DNA of 64,000 nucleotides from Rugalucina vietnamica (lineage: Eukaryota > Mollusca > Bivalvia > Lucinida > Lucinidae), in the NCBI GenBank assembly GCA_964017185.1, contig OZ024875.1:27227456-27291455 (forward strand). Direction: 5' to 3'. Positions 4,545-46,281 of the stretch are shown here, piece after piece. The position numbers were made by a program, and so were the translations under genes. Numbering within the stretch: position 1 is the stretch's first letter; each line of letters opens with the position of its first letter. Below the pieces are notes generated by a model. It was not told where the DNA came from. It was given only the letters and a program-made list of their open reading frames with translations, and made no database searches.

Positions 4545-6077
4545 TATGCCCCCAACTGTATGCTTGTCCCTAAAATGGCAGTTTGTATGATTCATTCATT
4601 TCATTCGAATGCAGTCAAATTTAATTTCCTGAAGAAGCTGTTCGGTTGCGTCTGTTTTGACCTCGATCCAGAAACACAATGTAAGCTTTTTTTGCAGGCG
4701 AGTTAGAAATGAAGTAAAAAATTAAAAATGGAGTAATTTTGTCAAAATTTGACAGAGAGTCCTCAAATGTTAACCAGGTGATCTTCTTCTCAGCCCCAAC
4801 CAGCATAACAAATATGAAGGCTCTAGCTAGCTAGCTAGCTCAAATATATTTTGAGATATCTTGCACACAAGATTTTCAAAATTTGTTTTCAAAGGGACAT
4901 TATTCCAACAAGGGGCATAACACGTACATGAAAAAAATACAGGCCAACTATTTTTTCTATTAGGAATCTGTATATGTAATTTCAAAACCCTATCATTCAC
5001 CGTTCAAAAGTTTCAAATTTCACCGAAAAAGGAAAAAATCAATGAAAATTTCAAAATTCTGTGTTTTTGTAAAAATTTGATGGAAAATTCTCAAAAGTTA
5101 ATCAGGTCATCTACTTCTCAGCCCCAACAAGTGTACCAAATATGAAGGCTCTAGCTTCAATACTTTTTGAGATATCTTGCACACAAGATTTTCAAATTTT
5201 GTTTTCAAAGGGACATAACTCAAAAAAGGGGCATAACTTGGCCATACAAAAAAATACGGGTTAACTATTTTATCATGAGGAATGTGTATATGAAATTTCA
5301 AAACCCTAGCATTCACCGTTCAAAAGTTTCCAATTTCACCGAAAAGTGGAAAAATCAATCAAAATTTCAAAATTCCGTATTTTTGTAAAAATTTGACGGA
5401 AAGTTCTCAAAAGTTAATCAGGTCATCTACTACTCAGCCCCAACAAGTGTACCAAATATGAAGGCTCTAGCTTCAATACTTTTTGAGATATCTTGCACAC
5501 AAGATTTTCAAATTTTGTTTTCAAAGGGACATAACTCAAAAAAGGGGCATAACTTTGCCATACAAAAAAATACGGGTCAACTATTTTATCATGAGGAATG
5601 TGTATATGAAATTTCAAAACCCTAGCATTCACCGTTCAAAAGTTTCAAATTTCACCGAAAAGCGGAAAAATCAATCAAAATTTCAAAATTCCGTATTTTT
5701 GTAAAAATTTGACGGAAAGTTCTCAAAAGTTAATCAGGTCATCTACTCCTCAGCCCCAACAAGTGTACCAAATATGAAGGCTCTAGCTAAAATACTTTTT
5801 GAGATATCTTGCACACAAGATTTTCAAATTTTGTTTTCAAAGGGACATAACTCAGAAAAGGGGTGTAACTTGGACATGAAAAAAAAATACGGGTCAACTA
5901 TTTTTTCATGAGGAATGTGCATATGAAATTTCAAAACCCTAGCATTCACCATTCAAAAGTTAACACACACACAGACAGACAGACAGACAGACAGACACAC
6001 AGACAGACAAGCCGAAAGCAATATGCCCTTCCAACTTTTTCAAAGTTGGGGCCAACTTTTTCAAAGTTGGGGGCATA
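4545..6077 (+). mobile_element. Tandem-core, Helentron-like non-autonomous element 2
   Basis: TATGCCCCCAAC at 4545-4556 is answered by GTTGGGGGCATA at 6066-6077. The core is about four units of 316-317 bp. For example, the phrase ATGAGGAATGTGTATATG recurs near 5275, 5591 and 5908, with a diverged first unit near 4960. The core is followed by an (ACAG)n/(ACAC)n microsatellite (5964-6008) and two adjacent short hairpins, CCAACTTT-TTC-AAAGTTGG, just before the 3' end. The layout is the same as at 284-1000 although the sequence is unrelated, so this is a second family with the same plan. Paired 69-codon and 73-codon frames 316 bp apart are repeat artefacts. Confidence 0.7.
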
Positions 6078-12109: not shown

Positions 12110-14161
12110 AATTTTCGTAGACTAGTAAATTTTACCCGTCTCGACGTAGCAGTAAGATGATTGCGGCGATGAAGACAAATAAGATACCCACATACACACA
12201 CACTCACACAATCTCAAATAAGACATACACAGAGGAAAAGAGAAAAAAAAATGACAAATTTGACCTTTGACCTCGATGACCTTGACCTTTCAAAAAATGA
12301 AACCCTCAAGCTAATATCCGGGGCCGCCCTCCACCTTCCCTCCAAGTTTGGTGAAGATCGGCCCAAGGACCTGGGAGGAACAAACAAAAAAACAACATAA
12401 ATTTGACTTTTGACCCAACTGGACCCATAAATCTTAATCAGGGATCAACCCGTGTACACTCACCAACTTTCATGCAAATCAGACCAAGGACTGTCGTGTT
12501 ACAGAAATTTGACCTTTGACCTCGATGACCTTGACCTTTAAAAAATGAACCCCTCGGCTAAAATCCAGGGCCTCCCTCAACCTTCCCACCAAGTTTGGTG
12601 AAGATTGGCCCAAGGACCTGGGAGAAACAAACAGAAAAAAAACAACATAAATTTGACCTTTGACCTCGATGACCTTTGTCCCAATTGGACCCATAAATCT
12701 TAATCAGGGATCAACCTGTATACACTCACCAAGTTTTATGTAAATCAGACCAAGGACTGCTGAGATATATAAATTTGACATTTGACCTCTATGACCTTGA
12801 CCTTTAATAAATGAATCCCTCGAGCTAATATCCGGAAATTCGGTGAAGATCGGCCCAAGGACCTGGGAGAAGTAGGGGAACAAACAGAAAAAGAAACATG
12901 ACCAACAGAAAAAAACCATAAATTTGACCTTTGACCTCGATGACCTTTGACCCAATTGGACCCATAAATCTTAATCAGGGATCAACCTGTATACACTCAG
13001 CAAGTTTCATGCAAATCGGACCAAGGACTGCTGAGATACAGAAATTTGACCTTTGACCTCGATGACCTTGTCCTTTTAAATAATTAACCCATCGAGCTAA
13101 TATCCGGGGCCGCCCTGTATACACTCACCAAGTTTCATGCAAATCGGCTTATGGACTGCCGAGATACAGAAATTTGACCTTTGACCTCGATGATATTGAC
13201 CTTTGGAAAAATGAACCCCTCCAGCTAATATCTTGGGCCGCCCTCAACCTTACCACCAAGTTTGGTGAAGATTGGCCCAAGGACCTGGGAGGAACAAACA
13301 GAAAAAACCCATAAATTTGACCTTTGACCTCGATGACCTTTGACCCAATTGGACCCATAAATCTTAATCAGGGATCAACCTGTACACACTCACCAAGTTT
13401 TATGTAAATCGGACCAAGGACTGCTGAGATATAGAAATTTGATCTTTGACCTCGATGACCTTGACCTTAAATAAATGAATCCCTCGAGCTAATATCCGGA
13501 AGTTCGTTGAAGATCGGCCCAAGGACCTGGGAGAAGTAGGGGAACAAACAGAAAAAAAACATGACCAACAGAAAAAACCCGATAAATTTGATCTTTGACC
13601 TCGATGACCTTTGACGCAATTGGACCCATAAATCTTAATCAGGGATCAACCTGTATACACTCAGCAATTTTCATGCAAATCGGACCAAGGACTGCTGAGA
13701 TACAGAAATTTGACCTTTGACCTCGATGACCTTGACCTTTTTAATAATTAACCCATCGAGCTAATATCCGGGGCCGCCCTGTATACACTTACCAAGTTTC
13801 ATGCAAATCGGACCAAGGACTGCCGAGATACAGAAATTTGACCTTTGACCTCGATGACCTTGACCTTTGGAAAAATTAACCCCTCGAGCTAATATCTGGG
13901 GCCGCCCTCAACCTTCCCACCAAGTTTGGTGAAGATCAGCCCAAGGACCTGGGAGGAGTAGGGGAACAAACAGAGAAAAAAAAACAAATTTGACCTTTGA
14001 CCTTGATGACCTTGACCTTTCAAATAATGAACCCCTCAAGGTCATATCCGGGGCCGCCCTCCACCTTCCCTCCAAGTTTGGTGAAGATCGGCCCAAGGAC
14101 CTGGGAGGAGTAGGGGAACAAACAAACAAACAAACAGACAAACGTTGCTCAAATTATAGTA
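12110..14161 (+). repeat. Tandem array rich in DR1 nuclear-receptor motifs, inserted in X copy 1
   Basis: Tandem subunits of about 128, 250 and 265-271 bp build a higher-order unit of 664 bp (12787-13450 repeated at 13451-14114). Each subunit contains TTTGACCTTTGACCTCGATG. Ten perfect TGACCTTTGACCT motifs occur, near 12261, 12510, 12654, 12924, 13046, 13174, 13318, 13711, 13839 and 13991, with mutated ones in between. A further AATTTGACC-to-AATTGGACC block alternates with them. The array is followed by an (AACA)n/(CAGA) microsatellite (14116-14141). The flanking X element is split at 12109/14162, which shows that this block was inserted. The layout resembles the tandem-core elements at 284 and 4545, but no terminal inverted repeat was identified. 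Confidence 0.7.
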
Positions 14162-14947: not shown

Positions 14948-17900
14948 CGTCCGTCCGTCCGAGCGTCCGTCCGTCCGTCTGTCTGTCTGTCTGGCTCTAT
15001 ATACTTGCATGTCTGTATCTCTTCATCTACAATGGGTGTGAGGACTAATAGTAATGTCTAATTAGGTGTTAAAATTACAATAATTATATTTACACAACAT
15101 AAAGCATGTAACATTTATAATTCAAAGTGTATGTTTGATGTTCGGCACCTTAGCAATATCAAGTACGTATGGCGTTTAAGTCGCCCACATTGCGAATCCA
15201 GGGCTTCTACAGTCTTTCGGCATGCTTACCTAATTACAAGTAGCTGTTGAGTGGGACGCAACTACGTTTGAAACTGAAATTAATGTGCACTACCATACTA
15301 CCACCACTAGTCTATCATGAAGAGATTTTCAGTAACAGTGTTTTAAGCAGCAGTCACACATTAGCGTATAAGTGAAACGCGCGCCGGGCGTTTTGAAAAA
15401 ATTGCAAAATTCCACATACGCCAGACGCACGTCAGAGACACGTTCAAAGCGCGTTACGAGCACGTTGGGTACGCTTGGTGTACGTCCGGAGCGCGTCACA
15501 GTACGTCACTAAAAATCGTCGCGCGTTTCGTGCGCGTTTGGAATAAAAAAAATTGAACATGCTCAAACATTTTCTAGAAGCTCGGCGTGTCCCGGGCGTG
15601 TGACTTATACGTTTCGAATAAGTTCCACACGCGCTACAAGCGCGTTGAATATAGGGATCAACCATGGTTTTCAGTGTTCAAACATTCGATGGATCACGAG
15701 GAAGGGGTTTGAACACAAGGCCGCAGGCCGCGTGTTCAAACCCCTTCCGAGTGATCCAGCGAATGTTTGAACACTGAAACAAACCATGGTTGATCGCTAT
15801 TCTTGCATTTTCACTCTAATCCACTTAAAAACTCTTGAAAATAGCATTAACAACGTAAAAACTCACCGAAAACCGCGGAGCTTCTTCAACGTCGGCCATT
15901 TTGTTTAGAACGAAACACATGACGTCACGTCGCATTGACCAATGACGTCGGCCAAAACCCATGTTCAAACGGCACGTGAATTTCATGATTTGAACATGGG
16001 TTTAGCTGTTTGAATACGGCTTTCGACCAATCGAAAACTGCTTCAAACAGCTATGCGCATAGATTTCTATGCAAGAATCCGTTTTCGATTGGTCGAAAGC
16101 CGTGTTCAAACAGCAAAACCCATGTTCAAATCATGAAATTCACGTGCCGTTTGAACATGGGTTTTGGCCGACGTCATTGGTCAATGCGACGTGACGTCAT
16201 TTGTTTCGTTCTAAACAAAATGGCCGACGTTGAAGAAGCTCCGCGGGTTTCGGTGAGTTTTTACGTTGTTAATGTTATTTTCAAGAGATTTTAAGTGGAT
16301 TAGAGAGAAAATGCAAGAATAGCGATCAACCCTGCGGCCTTGTGTTCAAACGCCTTCCTCGTGATCCATCGAATGTTTGAACACTGAAAACCATGGTTGA
16401 TCCCTATATTCAAACAGCTATGCGCATAGATTTCTATGCAAGAATGACGCTTCGAACGTGTTTGGCACACGTTTTAGGCACGTCATTGTACGCTACATGC
16501 GCGTTTCGATTTTATGAGATATTGCTTCAGTAGCGTGCCCCAAGCGTGTGTGAAACGCGCGTTGAACGTTTGCTGCGCGTCTGTAGCGCGTGCTTAGCGT
16601 GTCTGGGACGTAACACAAAGGTACTCTAAAACTATGAGATTATTTATACGTCCGGCACACGCCTCAGTCACGCGCTAATGTGTGACTGCTAAAGCGAGTT
16701 AAAGGTACAAACTAATAGCTCTGTCACACATTCACGTATCAGCGGCGTATCGCTCACGTATCTATGTCGATACGCCGAGGTCTGAGCCGTATTTAGCTCG
16801 AGCGACGTATGTACCACGTACGTGTGACGTTCCTGCTACGTTCCCGTGGCGTATCTGTGACGTATTTGCATTCCTATGGAATTTCACTTTCGTATGTGTG
16901 GCGTATCAAGGCGTATGTGCTACGTACGTGTGACAATATTAAGCCTATTAATTTATTCATATAAAATTCTTTATTACACAATCAGTCATCAAATACATTT
17001 TATTTTCATATTAGAGCGATATTCTTCGCCCACGGCATTAATACCTGGGCCCAGAATTACAATGCTTCCTTAACTCTTAAGGTCTACCTTAACTTAAGAT
17101 TTTCCTTAAAATCGACAAAAGTGCATTACAATCGATTTTCTTACTTTAAGGTAGACCTTAACTTGAGGAAAAACTTAAATATTTAAGGTTACTCGATAGC
17201 TACCTTAACTTAAGATTTTACTTAGACTAGATAAATAATGCTCGGTTAATGCATTATTCAAGGGAGTTTTAATAATATGTTTATGCACACTGTGTAACCT
17301 TGCAATGCTACGTTACGTATATCACATTTTTCGCCATAATATTTTTCACGTAACGGAGATGGTTGTGTAGAGCGTGTGCAGGAGTGGGAGACTTTTTCAG
17401 TTCCTAATCTTGTTTTAGTTTAACTTCATTTTTGGTTAAACGAAACAACTCGAGACTTGTCTGTCCACATGTGCATGTGGAATTATTATAAATTGAAAAA
17501 TTAAGATGTTGCATGCCCGATGTGGCTTAATAACTACTCAGTCAACAATTTTAAGTCATGTCGAGACATTGCTTCCATGAAAATTTACAAGTAATGTGTT
17601 GGGTAAGTTAGTCGTTTCTTTGATGCTTTACGTCATAATCAACAGATATAGGCATGTCGATACGTTGCTTCAGTTTTATATCAATATTTGGATGTCATGA
17701 CACACCCAGGATTACCTGTTACAGCGAACTCGGAGGTTCGGGGAACTCGGAGGTAAACAATGGAAGACGCCTTAGACTAGGGTCAGTATAATATCATTTT
17801 TAATATCACATAACGGTAAAATCAGAACTTATTGGTGTTTTGGGCTTAGAGGTGTTATAATAAGCAAACAATTTATGAACAGTGTAGCCGTCTTTGTCCT

Positions 17901-44551: not shown

Positions 44552-46281
44552 TCAGATAAATAACGAATAACTTCGCATCCAATAAGGTTTCCCTCGAAAC
44601 TTTACAGAAAATGAAACGATTTTCATAGATCAAGGAGGCATTACATTACGCTTCCGATTTCGTCTGCATCAACAAATAGCTAAAATCGAACAACTGCCAG
44701 TTGGTCCTAGTTGTAACGAACATGCTTTTAAAAGTTTCGCGATACTTTGTTGATAATAATGGTCGATGAGAAAGACCATCATTATTTCTTGAATAGGTTC
44801 GTGTGTGTTGGTGAGTTCTTTGATGGCTGACTAGGCCAAGTCTAGCTCTAAACTGTCGGTTGAAAGTAGAGCAAGTCAATGTCATGGAATCAGCTGGTGG
44901 CCCATTGGTATTGGCTTTGCGTTCTATGCGTTTTCTTTCAGCAATAATAATACGCTAGTTAAAGTACCGAGTAGAAAAAATAAGTAATATAAATCGAGTC
45001 GAAGACGAGCTGTTTTTACTTATTTTTTCTACGAGGTCTTTAAGTTAGAGTTAAAGTACCGAGTAGAAAAAATAAGTAAAATAAAGCGAGTCGAAGACGA
45101 GCTGTTTTTACTTATTTTTTCTACGAGGTCTTTAACTAACTTGTAGTATGACACAACACAAATTGGCAGATCCGTACTGTAACTTCCAATATCAGGAAGT
45201 TATTGTACGGCTTTCATCCCGCCTCTTTGCATTGTAATAATATGTGGGCCCGCCTCTTTTCATATTGACTTGTATTGGATTTAATGTTATAAAAACTTCA
45301 AAGGAAAAACAGAAAGTCATACTACAACTTGTAGTATGACACAACACAAATTGGCAGATCCGTACTGTAACTTCCAATATCAGGAAGTTATTGTACGGCT
45401 TTCATCCCGCCTCTTTGCTTTGTAATAATATGTGGGCCCGCCTCTTTTCATATTGACTTGTATTGGATTTAATGTTATAAAAACTTCAAAGGAAAAACAG
45501 AAAGTCATACTACAAATTATTATTTCACAATATCATCTTCTCTCAGAAATCTTGCTCGATCAAGCTCGATCTTAGACGGATCAAAAGTCAGACGTAGCAG
45601 CACTTGAAATGTACATCTGCTTGCAGCATATTTTGCGCGCATTCTAGTAGGCTCATCCGATCTTTGATGCGTCCAAGGTTAAGTCCGAGCAGTTTGTTTT
45701 ACCTCCCTACACAGACGTGAAAGTACGTGTCGCACGTGTCACCAGTCTGACAAGTGGCTCTCTGAGGACCGTCACAACATTTTCTGGCAGGGCTCGTCTC
45801 AACATACGCAGTTCCGTTTGGGTTGGAGAAAGAATGAATAGTCACGCCAACATTCACTTTTGCATAGGTGACCTTAGGGTGAATAAAGAAGTGAATTAAG
45901 TATTTATTTCACAATAAATTAAAAAGGTTGAAAATGGACATTGGATCTAGGGGTCAATAGTAATAAGTTCTGTACTTGTATTAATGATCAAAAATCTTGA
46001 AATCAAAATAATCTGGTTGAAATGGAATAAGAATATGACAGAAACACTTTTTACAACAGATTCACCGCACTTTGACGGTCTAGAACACAGGAAAGACGAG
46101 AAATGGTGGTTTGTGTTTATTTAAGGCTATAGTTGTCTTTCATAAGTCGAGGCTGGGTCACCTTAAAATAAATTTTGAGTCTTATTTTTTCGCGTATGAA
46201 CTTAAGGAAAATTTAGCTCACCGAAATGTATCCAACGTAGAAAACAGACAAAATAATGAGTAGGAACGCGTTTCCATTCAT
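35513..46281 (-). CDS. Notch-ligand-like type I membrane protein with two MNNL/DSL-like modules and 15 EGF repeats (16 exons)
   Basis: Exons on minus, 5' to 3': 46281-46222, 45872-45703, 44475-44361, 43849-43689, 43421-43291, 43029-42891, 41713-41557, 41144-40978, 40755-40602, 40155-40001, 39760-39672, 39289-37535, 37336-37204, 36822-36648, 35962-35868, 35585-35513. All junction phases agree and no stop interrupts, giving 1242 aa. Order: signal peptide (1-20), MNNL-like (21-168), DSL-like (169-212), unnamed domain X1 (213-311), second MNNL-like (312-469), reduced DSL-like (470-506), EGF 1-15 (507-~1075), X2 (1085-1187), membrane helix (~1195-1215), 28-residue tail. MNNL and DSL are the receptor-binding parts of Delta and Jagged/Serrate, so a cell-surface ligand or decoy role is likely. 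The tandem duplication of the N-terminal module and the short tail are unlike standard Notch ligands. Introns hold a mariner relic, MITEs and simple repeats. Confidence 0.85.
36648..37336 (-). CDS. Exons for domain X2 (juxtamembrane)
   Basis: Exons 37336-37204 and 36822-36648. The start, GTVFEMQFVHNITSLVKEQV, and CGGQEVKLFIRSVV correspond to EVLLEFKTNITEDQ and CPGQSEVDYPLVDVA of X1 (43029-41557), including paired Cys, NIT glycosylation site and a later CGN/CNN Cys. Its place between the EGF array and the membrane matches the extra juxtamembrane domain of Jagged/Serrate. Homology to that domain is only suggested. Confidence 0.75.
37535..39289 (-). CDS. Large exon with 15 EGF repeats
   Basis: One 1755-bp exon carries the last Cys of the second DSL-like region (GWYGPDC) and 15 consecutive EGF repeats. 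Most begin DxNEC or DxDEC, the calcium-binding signature (for example DDVNEC, DQDVDEC, LEDVDEC), and have the hydroxylation-type C-x-[DN]-x4-[FY]-x-C pattern (GSFICHC, GSFTCNC). Repeats 3, 4, 6, 7 and 13 lack the calcium motif. Fifteen repeats in one unspliced exon is unusual, as EGF arrays are mostly split by introns. The opposite-strand frames here are shadows. Confidence 0.9.
39672..41144 (-). CDS. Second MNNL-like module and reduced DSL-like region (4 exons)
   Basis: Exons 41144-40978, 40755-40602, 40155-40001 and 39760-39672. The first encodes IEIKSFDHPLGT, then CCDTEKMNNC and CDVYFSICIGK, matching the MNNL pattern (F-N-P-x-G, CC, CDxYFxxC). The last encodes ILAWCAPGHAGPSC then NDTCSLG, and continues as WYGPDC in the EGF exon. 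The middle Cys pair and the DxxGH part of a full DSL domain are missing. Confidence 0.75.
41557..43029 (-). CDS. Exons for domain X1
   Basis: Exons 43029-42891 and 41713-41557 encode residues ~213-311 (EVLLEFKTNITEDQ ... FTAFCNNRQIS ... VIAPKNYGE). The domain follows the first DSL-like region directly, where a Notch ligand would have EGF repeats, and is homologous to X2 before the membrane. The intron between these exons contains a mariner relic. Confidence 0.75.
41891..42857 (+). mobile_element. Decayed mariner element in intron
   Basis: Ends CGAAGAGCGTTCAAAAAGTTC and the inverse GAACTTTTTGAATCCCCCTCG, both flanked by TA. On the plus strand a stretch near 42312-42365 reads KKETLLTAESAYGNKEIK, followed by a degenerate W-H-x-F-x-x-R-x-S-x-x-D region. 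This is the N-terminal helix-turn-helix part of mariner transposases. The rest has stops and frameshifts and is far shorter than an intact ~1.3 kb mariner. It lies antisense in the X1 intron of the Notch-ligand-like gene. Confidence 0.75.
43057..43128 (+). repeat. (ATC)n microsatellite
   Basis: Near-perfect CAT trinucleotide run in the intron between the DSL-like exon and the first X1 exon. Confidence 0.92.
43291..46281 (-). CDS. Signal peptide, first MNNL-like domain and DSL-like domain (5 exons)
   Basis: 46281-46222 encodes MNGNAFLLIILSVFYVGYIS, a clear signal peptide. 45872-45703 encodes VGVTIHSFSNPNGT, CCDGPQ and CDTYFHVCVG, a good MNNL match. 44475-44361 and 43849-43689 add YWDGMTIFVFIRDDD, the strand that ends the C2-like MNNL fold. 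43421-43291 encodes VWCAKNYYGPQC, ANYC, IAIC and LEC, five of the six DSL cysteines with the YYG signature. The GWxGxxC end and the DxxGH turn are missing. Confidence 0.82.
44227..44262 (+). repeat. Poly(T) run
   Basis: T homopolymer in intron; a second one lies at 44509-44550, just after the acceptor side of exon 3. The Lys-run minus-strand frame across it is an artefact. Confidence 0.85.
44957..45137 (+). repeat. Tandem pair of 92-bp hairpin units
   Basis: GTTAAAGTACCGAGTAGAAA starts at 44958 and again at 45050. Each unit is itself a hairpin: GTAGAAAAAATAAGTA faces TACTTATTTTTTCTAC. Confidence 0.75.
45141..45515 (+). mobile_element. Two identical-sized MITEs back to back
   Basis: Copies 45141-45327 and 45329-45515, each 187 bp, each TTGTAGTATGAC at the left and GTCATACTACAA at the right, separated by one base. 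They differ at very few positions, so the duplication is recent. They lie in the intron before MNNL exon 3 of the Notch-ligand-like gene. Confidence 0.8.

Follow-up and report, generated by a model that had tools for sequence, protein, structure and literature searches.

A nested pair of probable non-autonomous Crypton units bearing an exon-like block in the genome of the bivalve Rugalucina vietnamica

Organization of the locus

The term window designates here the whole stretch of 64,000 nucleotides that was analysed. Comparison of the window with itself displays two inverted arms, at 15785-16044 and 16075-16334, that are 96% complementary. The palindrome reported at 15655..16451 in the preliminary description is thereby confirmed, with its true limits corrected to those of a composite insertion at 15650-16444. 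Alignment with copies taken from elsewhere in the genome indicates that this palindrome is made of two nested units of 428 bp at a single site, one whole and the other damaged and inverted. The whole unit lies on the minus strand at 15650..16077, its 5' end at 16077 and its 3' end at 15650 being defined by the alignment of 29 copies and by empty sites. The second unit occupies 16078..16408 on the plus strand and, according to the alignment, is deprived of its first ~36 bp and of half of its 3' hairpin. A 5' end of 36 bp, standing by itself at 16409..16444 (minus strand) and recognized from an exact 37-bp repeat and from the flanks, constitutes the outer end of the composite insertion. The whole composite occupies one host site flanked by TTCGAAGCGTCA on one side and TTCAACG on the other. 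The simplest history would be the insertion of one unit into another between GC and TTCAAAC, followed by a flip of the part enclosed by the inverted arms; a like insertion, at the same GC and TTCAAAC boundary within another unit, is found at locus L002. The pair lies within another, CG-rich palindromic repeat, whose arms at 15349-15391 and 16648-16690 are 79% complementary and which measures ~545 bp once the insertion is subtracted.

The motifs previously noticed in both arms, all facing outward, can be read in the sequence as described. They comprise an E box CACGTG (15973-15978 in one arm, 16141-16146 in the other), a CCAAT box inverted relative to the exon (15939-15943, and 16176-16180 where it reads ATTGG), a CRE TGACGTCA (15920-15927 and 16192-16199), an ATG located in both arms within the initiation context ACAAAATGG, a frame of 11 codons and a GTGAGT donor. 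The putative first coding exon encodes MADVEEAPRFS at 15867-15899 on the minus strand, with its donor at 15861-15866, and its second copy encodes MADVEEAPRVS at 16220-16252 on the plus strand, with its donor at 16253-16258; both exons are predicted from the sequence.

Anatomy of the 428-bp unit

The architecture of the unit is best followed on the whole copy, in which all features are on the minus strand. The unit begins with TTCTTGCAT and folds into a 5' terminal hairpin at unit positions 6-21 (window 16057..16072). Hairpins II and III follow at unit 25-123 (15955..16053); hairpin III includes the E box and can be aligned with the autonomous Crypton described below. Next comes an exon-like block of 146 bp (unit 124-269, 15809..15954) carrying the CCAAT box, CRE, ATG, 11 codons, GTGAGT and an intron-like stretch; this block displays no alignment to the autonomous loci L089 and L091 above that of shuffled sequences. 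It is followed by an internal ATGCAAGAA at 15800..15808, which repeats the 5' terminal TTCTTGCAT in inverted orientation and shows 1 substitution in 382 cells of the copy alignment. A 3' hairpin of ~150 bp (15650..15799), 95% shared with the recombinase-coding element, terminates the unit with CCCTATA. No inverted-repeat relation exists between the terminal TTCTTGC and CCCTATA. The E box had been counted with the promoter-like block and is indeed present in each arm, but its location in hairpin III, outside the exon block, and its presence in the autonomous copy L091 identify it as Crypton sequence.

Eight TTTGAA/TTCAAA words are found per unit, all of them inside hairpins, where 0.33 would be expected; these words are probably the half-sites of the recombinase. 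The search for compensatory changes in the hairpins returned three pairs with 1, 1 and 3 cells, and slid controls gave equally many. At unit 270-290 (window 15788-15808), the sequence ATGCAAGAATAGCGATCAACC comes close to the inverse of the end junction GGTTGATCCCTATATTCTTGCAT. Inverted end-like sites thus border the 3' hairpin, and the recombinase might be able to invert it.

Copies across the genome

The genome (1.09 Gb, 47 contigs), in which BTB-Kelch and EGF genes suggest an animal, was searched with short segments of the unit. The 27-bp start of the exon was found at 1,340 places (661 and 679) with up to 3 mismatches, while the reversed control returned 0, which argues that the exon sequence is no chance match and bears out the earlier proposal of a mobile, multi-copy element. 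The 30-bp 3' end of the unit was found at 1,581 places (787 and 794), again with a control of 0. When loci were fetched by exact exon match, 26/30 contained at least one full unit and the remaining 4/30 deleted or worn units. Among 52 consecutive exact matches to the 3' end on contig C1, 43 were full units and 9 were not. The head-to-tail junction of CCCTATA with TTCTTGC was observed in 7/72 end pairs.

With 40 of 1,973 candidates scored, most strong matches were single stretches of 424 bp or tandems, and full inverted doubles were present in at least 6 places, the window included. These doubles vary in geometry: L002 and the window display self-insertion, and L004 and L005 display head-to-head copies whose 5' ends face each other across a gap of a few bp.

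Autonomous recombinase-coding partner

Two of the nine non-standard 3'-end copies (L062 and L086) proved to belong to another, longer element, of which they represent the 3' end. These two loci are 97.6% alike and have only the 3' module in common with the unit. Upstream of L062 lies an element of 5.93 kb, corresponding to L089 3977-9905, both ends of which resemble those of the unit. L089 matches the unit at the 5' end (81% over 48 columns), in hairpin III (97.6% over 42 bp) and in the 3' module (95% over 159 bp); for L091, identity is 86% along 37 bp and 93% along 55 columns. A Helitron had been adopted as the first assignment of the unit, and was dropped after L062 and L086 had led to the recombinase-coding L089.

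The L089 recombinase matches PF00589 above cut-off (E=1.1e-7), its QRICH1 and DUF3504 matches being weak and below cut-off. PF00589 is also above cut-off in the relatives L090 (60%) and L094 (46%), whereas DUF3504 reaches it in L094 alone. The R, HxxR and HY motifs, whose meaning is given in PMC3212892, can be read in the recombinase frames. With 150 of 210 candidates scored, at least 10 recombinase copies of at least 95% identity over nearly the whole query were found, L089 included, in addition to a broken copy on contig C11; three of these copies keep open frames of 460-466 residues. The same scoring returned at least 5 further relatives at 60% and at least 2 at 45-46%. The three copies of this recombinase on C1 with 96-100% identity are all followed, ~2 kb downstream and on the same strand, by the 30-mer of the unit's 3' end. 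A sequence search of the PDB with the recombinase yielded weak, unrelated matches alone (best E 0.61). The autonomous Crypton is headed by an ORF of 89 residues (MDATLMFWPKIGDRV...) at L089 4138-4404 on the plus strand, for which Pfam displayed no match up to E 0.05. Locus L092, 1.4 kb placed by guess, had no match to the unit or to L089 and was set aside. Recombinase matches are numerous genome-wide, including sets of near-equal score that cover part of the query at ~30-46% identity, and the genome seems, from these matches, to be rich in tyrosine-recombinase elements.

Insertion sites and target

Empty sites were sought by comparing the joined flanks of 58 insertions with the other DNA fetched, and 11 cases were displayed. 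Insertion is exact, without duplication or loss, in 10 of these 11, where the paralogues abut at TTCTTGCATAG...GATCCCTATA; the L009 empty site (80% match) has a one-base gap at the joint, and the match of the L022 empty site spans 41 bp only. The terminal inverted repeats and target duplication of DDE-type elements are therefore absent, as 10/11 displayed sites abut exactly and the ends are not inverted repeats.

The target is an inverted repeat, TTGAA-6 bp-TTCAA, as defined by 41 distinct sites with long flanks. Their consensus reads T, T, R, A and A from -11 to -7, T and A at -2 and -1, and T, T, C, A and A from +1 to +5, with A-8 in 38/41 sites, T-11 in 29/41, A-1 in 38/41 and T+2 in 37/41. 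Controls consisted of 200 draws of window sites matched in the four central letters. The arm score averages 6.6 at insertion sites and 3.9 in the controls (highest of the 200 draws 4.4), the comparison being partly circular as the 41 sites scored are also those that yielded the consensus. The plainest single figure is that of A-8, present in 38/41 insertion sites and in at most 21 in the 200 matched control draws. The insertion site of L089 itself, between TTGAACATGAA and TTAAAA, fits this target. Tyrosine recombinase sites are made of two inverted arms of 11-13 bp separated by a spacer of 6-8 bp (PMC3212892); the two-armed target with short spacer fits a site of the recombinase type, with arms shorter here than the quoted 11-13 bp. 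An inverted-repeat target and the absence of duplication are as expected of a tyrosine recombinase. The 41 aligned insertion sites yield a target rule, inverted arms with a 6-bp spacer, for an animal-type Crypton; section 8 of PMC3212892 reports no terminal repeats for animal Cryptons and gives no such rule.

Class assignment

Since a long relative possessing both ends of the unit encodes a tyrosine recombinase, the unit is classified as a non-autonomous Crypton, and the palindrome is in all probability a nested pair of such 428-bp units. As the likeness between the 5' end of the unit and that of the autonomous element reaches only 81-86%, the direct parent of the unit may belong to another Crypton subfamily. 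A non-autonomous Helitron2/Helentron (HINE), a rolling-circle type in which asymmetric terminal inverted repeats are combined with a 5' hairpin and a 3' palindrome, would explain the presence of TTCTTGCAT at the 5' end and of ATGCAAGAA just ahead of the 3' hairpin, and the lack of target duplication, the tandems and the insertion between A and T or into T-rich targets are also like those of published Helitron2/HINE. Such an assignment is nevertheless very improbable in view of the tyrosine recombinase encoded by the long element with matching ends and of a target that is an inverted repeat extending to -11. Still harder to credit is the form first given to the proposal, in which the palindrome itself is mobile and its outward promoters and exons are selected. 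The full inverted doubles mentioned above are what it would predict, but full units, mostly single, are the rule at the loci fetched by exon and among the 3'-end matches, the geometry of the doubles differs between L002 and the window on the one hand and L004 and L005 on the other, and coding constraint is not apparent in the 43 copies considered next.

Divergence of the exon-like block

Divergence was measured on 43 full units, picked through an exact match at the 3' end. The number of substitutions per site is 0.011 in hairpin III and, when the last 30 bp, which served as selection pattern, are omitted, 0.019 in the 3' hairpin; the exon stands at 0.041, the intron side at 0.049 and the promoter at 0.057. 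The 58 changes found in the exon are distributed into 46 non-synonymous, 1 stop and 11 synonymous; the 47 non-synonymous or stop changes compare with ~39 expected when weighted by the possible changes per class. As 47/58 exon changes alter the peptide, there is no sign of coding constraint, the hairpins being conserved meanwhile. The claim that the frame is kept by selection finds no support in these values, the exon diverging by 4.1% versus 4.9% on the intron side and 5.7% in the promoter. At non-CpG sites, the exon is less variable (18/976, 1.8%) than the intron (101/2118, 4.8%) and the promoter (77/1808, 4.3%), which leaves some room for constraint.

The outcome that had been named as contrary to a functional exon, random substitutions and frameshifts in the 11 codons of other copies, was found in part: substitutions hit all codon positions and 2/43 copies are frame-shifted, yet the ATG, open frame and GT donor are kept in 36/43, a proportion expected of young neutral copies. 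The CRE is intact in 35/43.

Origin of the exon-like block

The autonomous element aligns with unit positions 270-428 and with part of 1 to ~120. The best score of the intervening block (unit 124-269) against that element was reached by 92/500 shuffles for the 5' region and by 61/200 for the whole. As it is not alignable to the autonomous Crypton, the block looks foreign, either filler from elsewhere or part of an unseen Crypton subfamily. These alignments bring some support to the earlier suggestion of a captured host exon, which is not matched by a donor: the 46 exact-match exon places read, of 1,340, all lie in copies of the unit, some of them truncated, and thus none provides the exon outside the element, the check that had been proposed. 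The 40 donor-gene candidates scored, of 1,705, are all about equal, so that a donor is not separable from the copies.

Of the origins considered, the most likely, although with a probability somewhat below one half, is a passenger block of 146 bp captured from the 5' end of a host gene. Alternatively, the block may be the Crypton's own promoter and first recombinase exon, from a subfamily in which the autonomous copies have disappeared or escaped notice, the unit being an internal deletion derivative. The ATG of the autonomous element has nearly the same position (158-162 versus 179 in the unit) and lies in the similar context AAACATGG, and the 81-86% likeness of the 5' ends implies that a sister subfamily probably existed. 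This origin is unlikely all the same, considering that the first frame of the autonomous element is the unrelated 89-residue ORF, that the exon block is unmatched in L090 and L094 (7.5 kb read of each) and that, among the matches listed, no recombinase at 60-95% occurs apart from the broken C11 copy. About equally unlikely is a non-exonic filler, never transcribed as such, in which the ATG, short frame and GTGAGT would be together by coincidence. The frame has just 11 codons, the copies show no coding constraint and changes are frequent in the donor hexamer (26 in 257 cells), all of which a filler would explain; the natural order of CRE, CCAAT box, good start context and strong donor within 135 bp argues against it, as does the retention of ATG, frame and GT, and of the CRE, in most of the 43 copies.

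Proposed mechanism and comparison with known systems

Taken as a whole, the reading retained here is tentative: a Crypton would have captured a host promoter, start codon, first coding exon and donor, ~1,300 portable putative first exons would be scattered across the genome, and the recombinase would read TTGAA-N6-TTCAA together with the hairpin half-sites. A recombinase supplied by autonomous copies would act in trans on the unit ends by binding the repeated TTTGAAC half-sites of the hairpins. A circular form would then recombine at its end junction with the TTGAA-N6-TTCAA target, and circles integrating at other units would generate tandems and nested pairs like that of the window. By analogy with HelibatN3, a unit lying in or ahead of a gene, in the sense direction, could provide a promoter, a start codon and a donor, and the 11-residue N-terminus of the unit could be spliced onto that gene. 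Should the block function as a captured first exon, tyrosine-recombinase transposons would join the Helitrons, for which gene capture and exon trapping are documented, and the genome would offer ~1,300 chances to re-promote or N-terminally extend genes. The target rule makes the action of the recombinase directly testable.

Known non-autonomous animal Cryptons include CryptonA-1N1_OL and -1N2_OL of medaka and CryptonI-1N1_RPro (Kojima and Jurka 2011, PMC3212892). According to section 8 of that article, short Crypton derivatives outnumber their parents in medaka and Rhodnius and are devoid of terminal repeats. Like them, the unit is short, carries the ends of a tyrosine-recombinase element, has far more copies than the autonomous form and lacks the usual terminal direct or inverted repeats. 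It differs from these elements, as they are described there, by hairpin-lined ends with recombinase-like half-sites, by a defined inverted-repeat target and by a central block, promoter-like with ATG and donor, that is absent from its partner. In the titles and abstract openings covered by the literature search, most subscription journals being outside its scope, no Crypton with a captured promoter or exon was found.

The nearest parallel to an exon-bearing unit is HelibatN3 of bats, which captured the NUBPL promoter (Grabundzija et al. 2016, PMC4778049). Both exist in many copies bearing a promoter, a start codon, a few N-terminal codons and a splice donor, the promoter and exon being putative in the unit. 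HelibatN3 traps downstream exons, which the unit does only potentially; the former is a Helitron with a known donor gene and demonstrated transcripts, whereas the latter is a Crypton known from genomic sequence. The asymmetric terminal inverted repeats and 3' hairpin typical of Helitron2/HINE, including the oyster Cg_HINE (PMC3627910, PMC4067079, PMC7492417), are present in the unit as TTCTTGCAT and ATGCAAGAA and the ~150-bp hairpin. Terminal hairpins, absence of target duplication and tandem copies are likewise common to both. Helitron2/HINE have a Rep/helicase partner and a TT or T-rich target, whereas the unit has a recombinase partner and an inverted-repeat target, and its 3' repeat lies ~150 bp from the end instead of ~20-60 bp.

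Other features of the window

Scans of the window for Rfam families (gathering threshold) and for tRNAs returned no match. Three tandem arrays are present elsewhere in the window, at 4733-5961 (units of ~316 bp), 12404-14124 (~271, ~128 and ~152 bp) and 45138-45515 (~188 bp).
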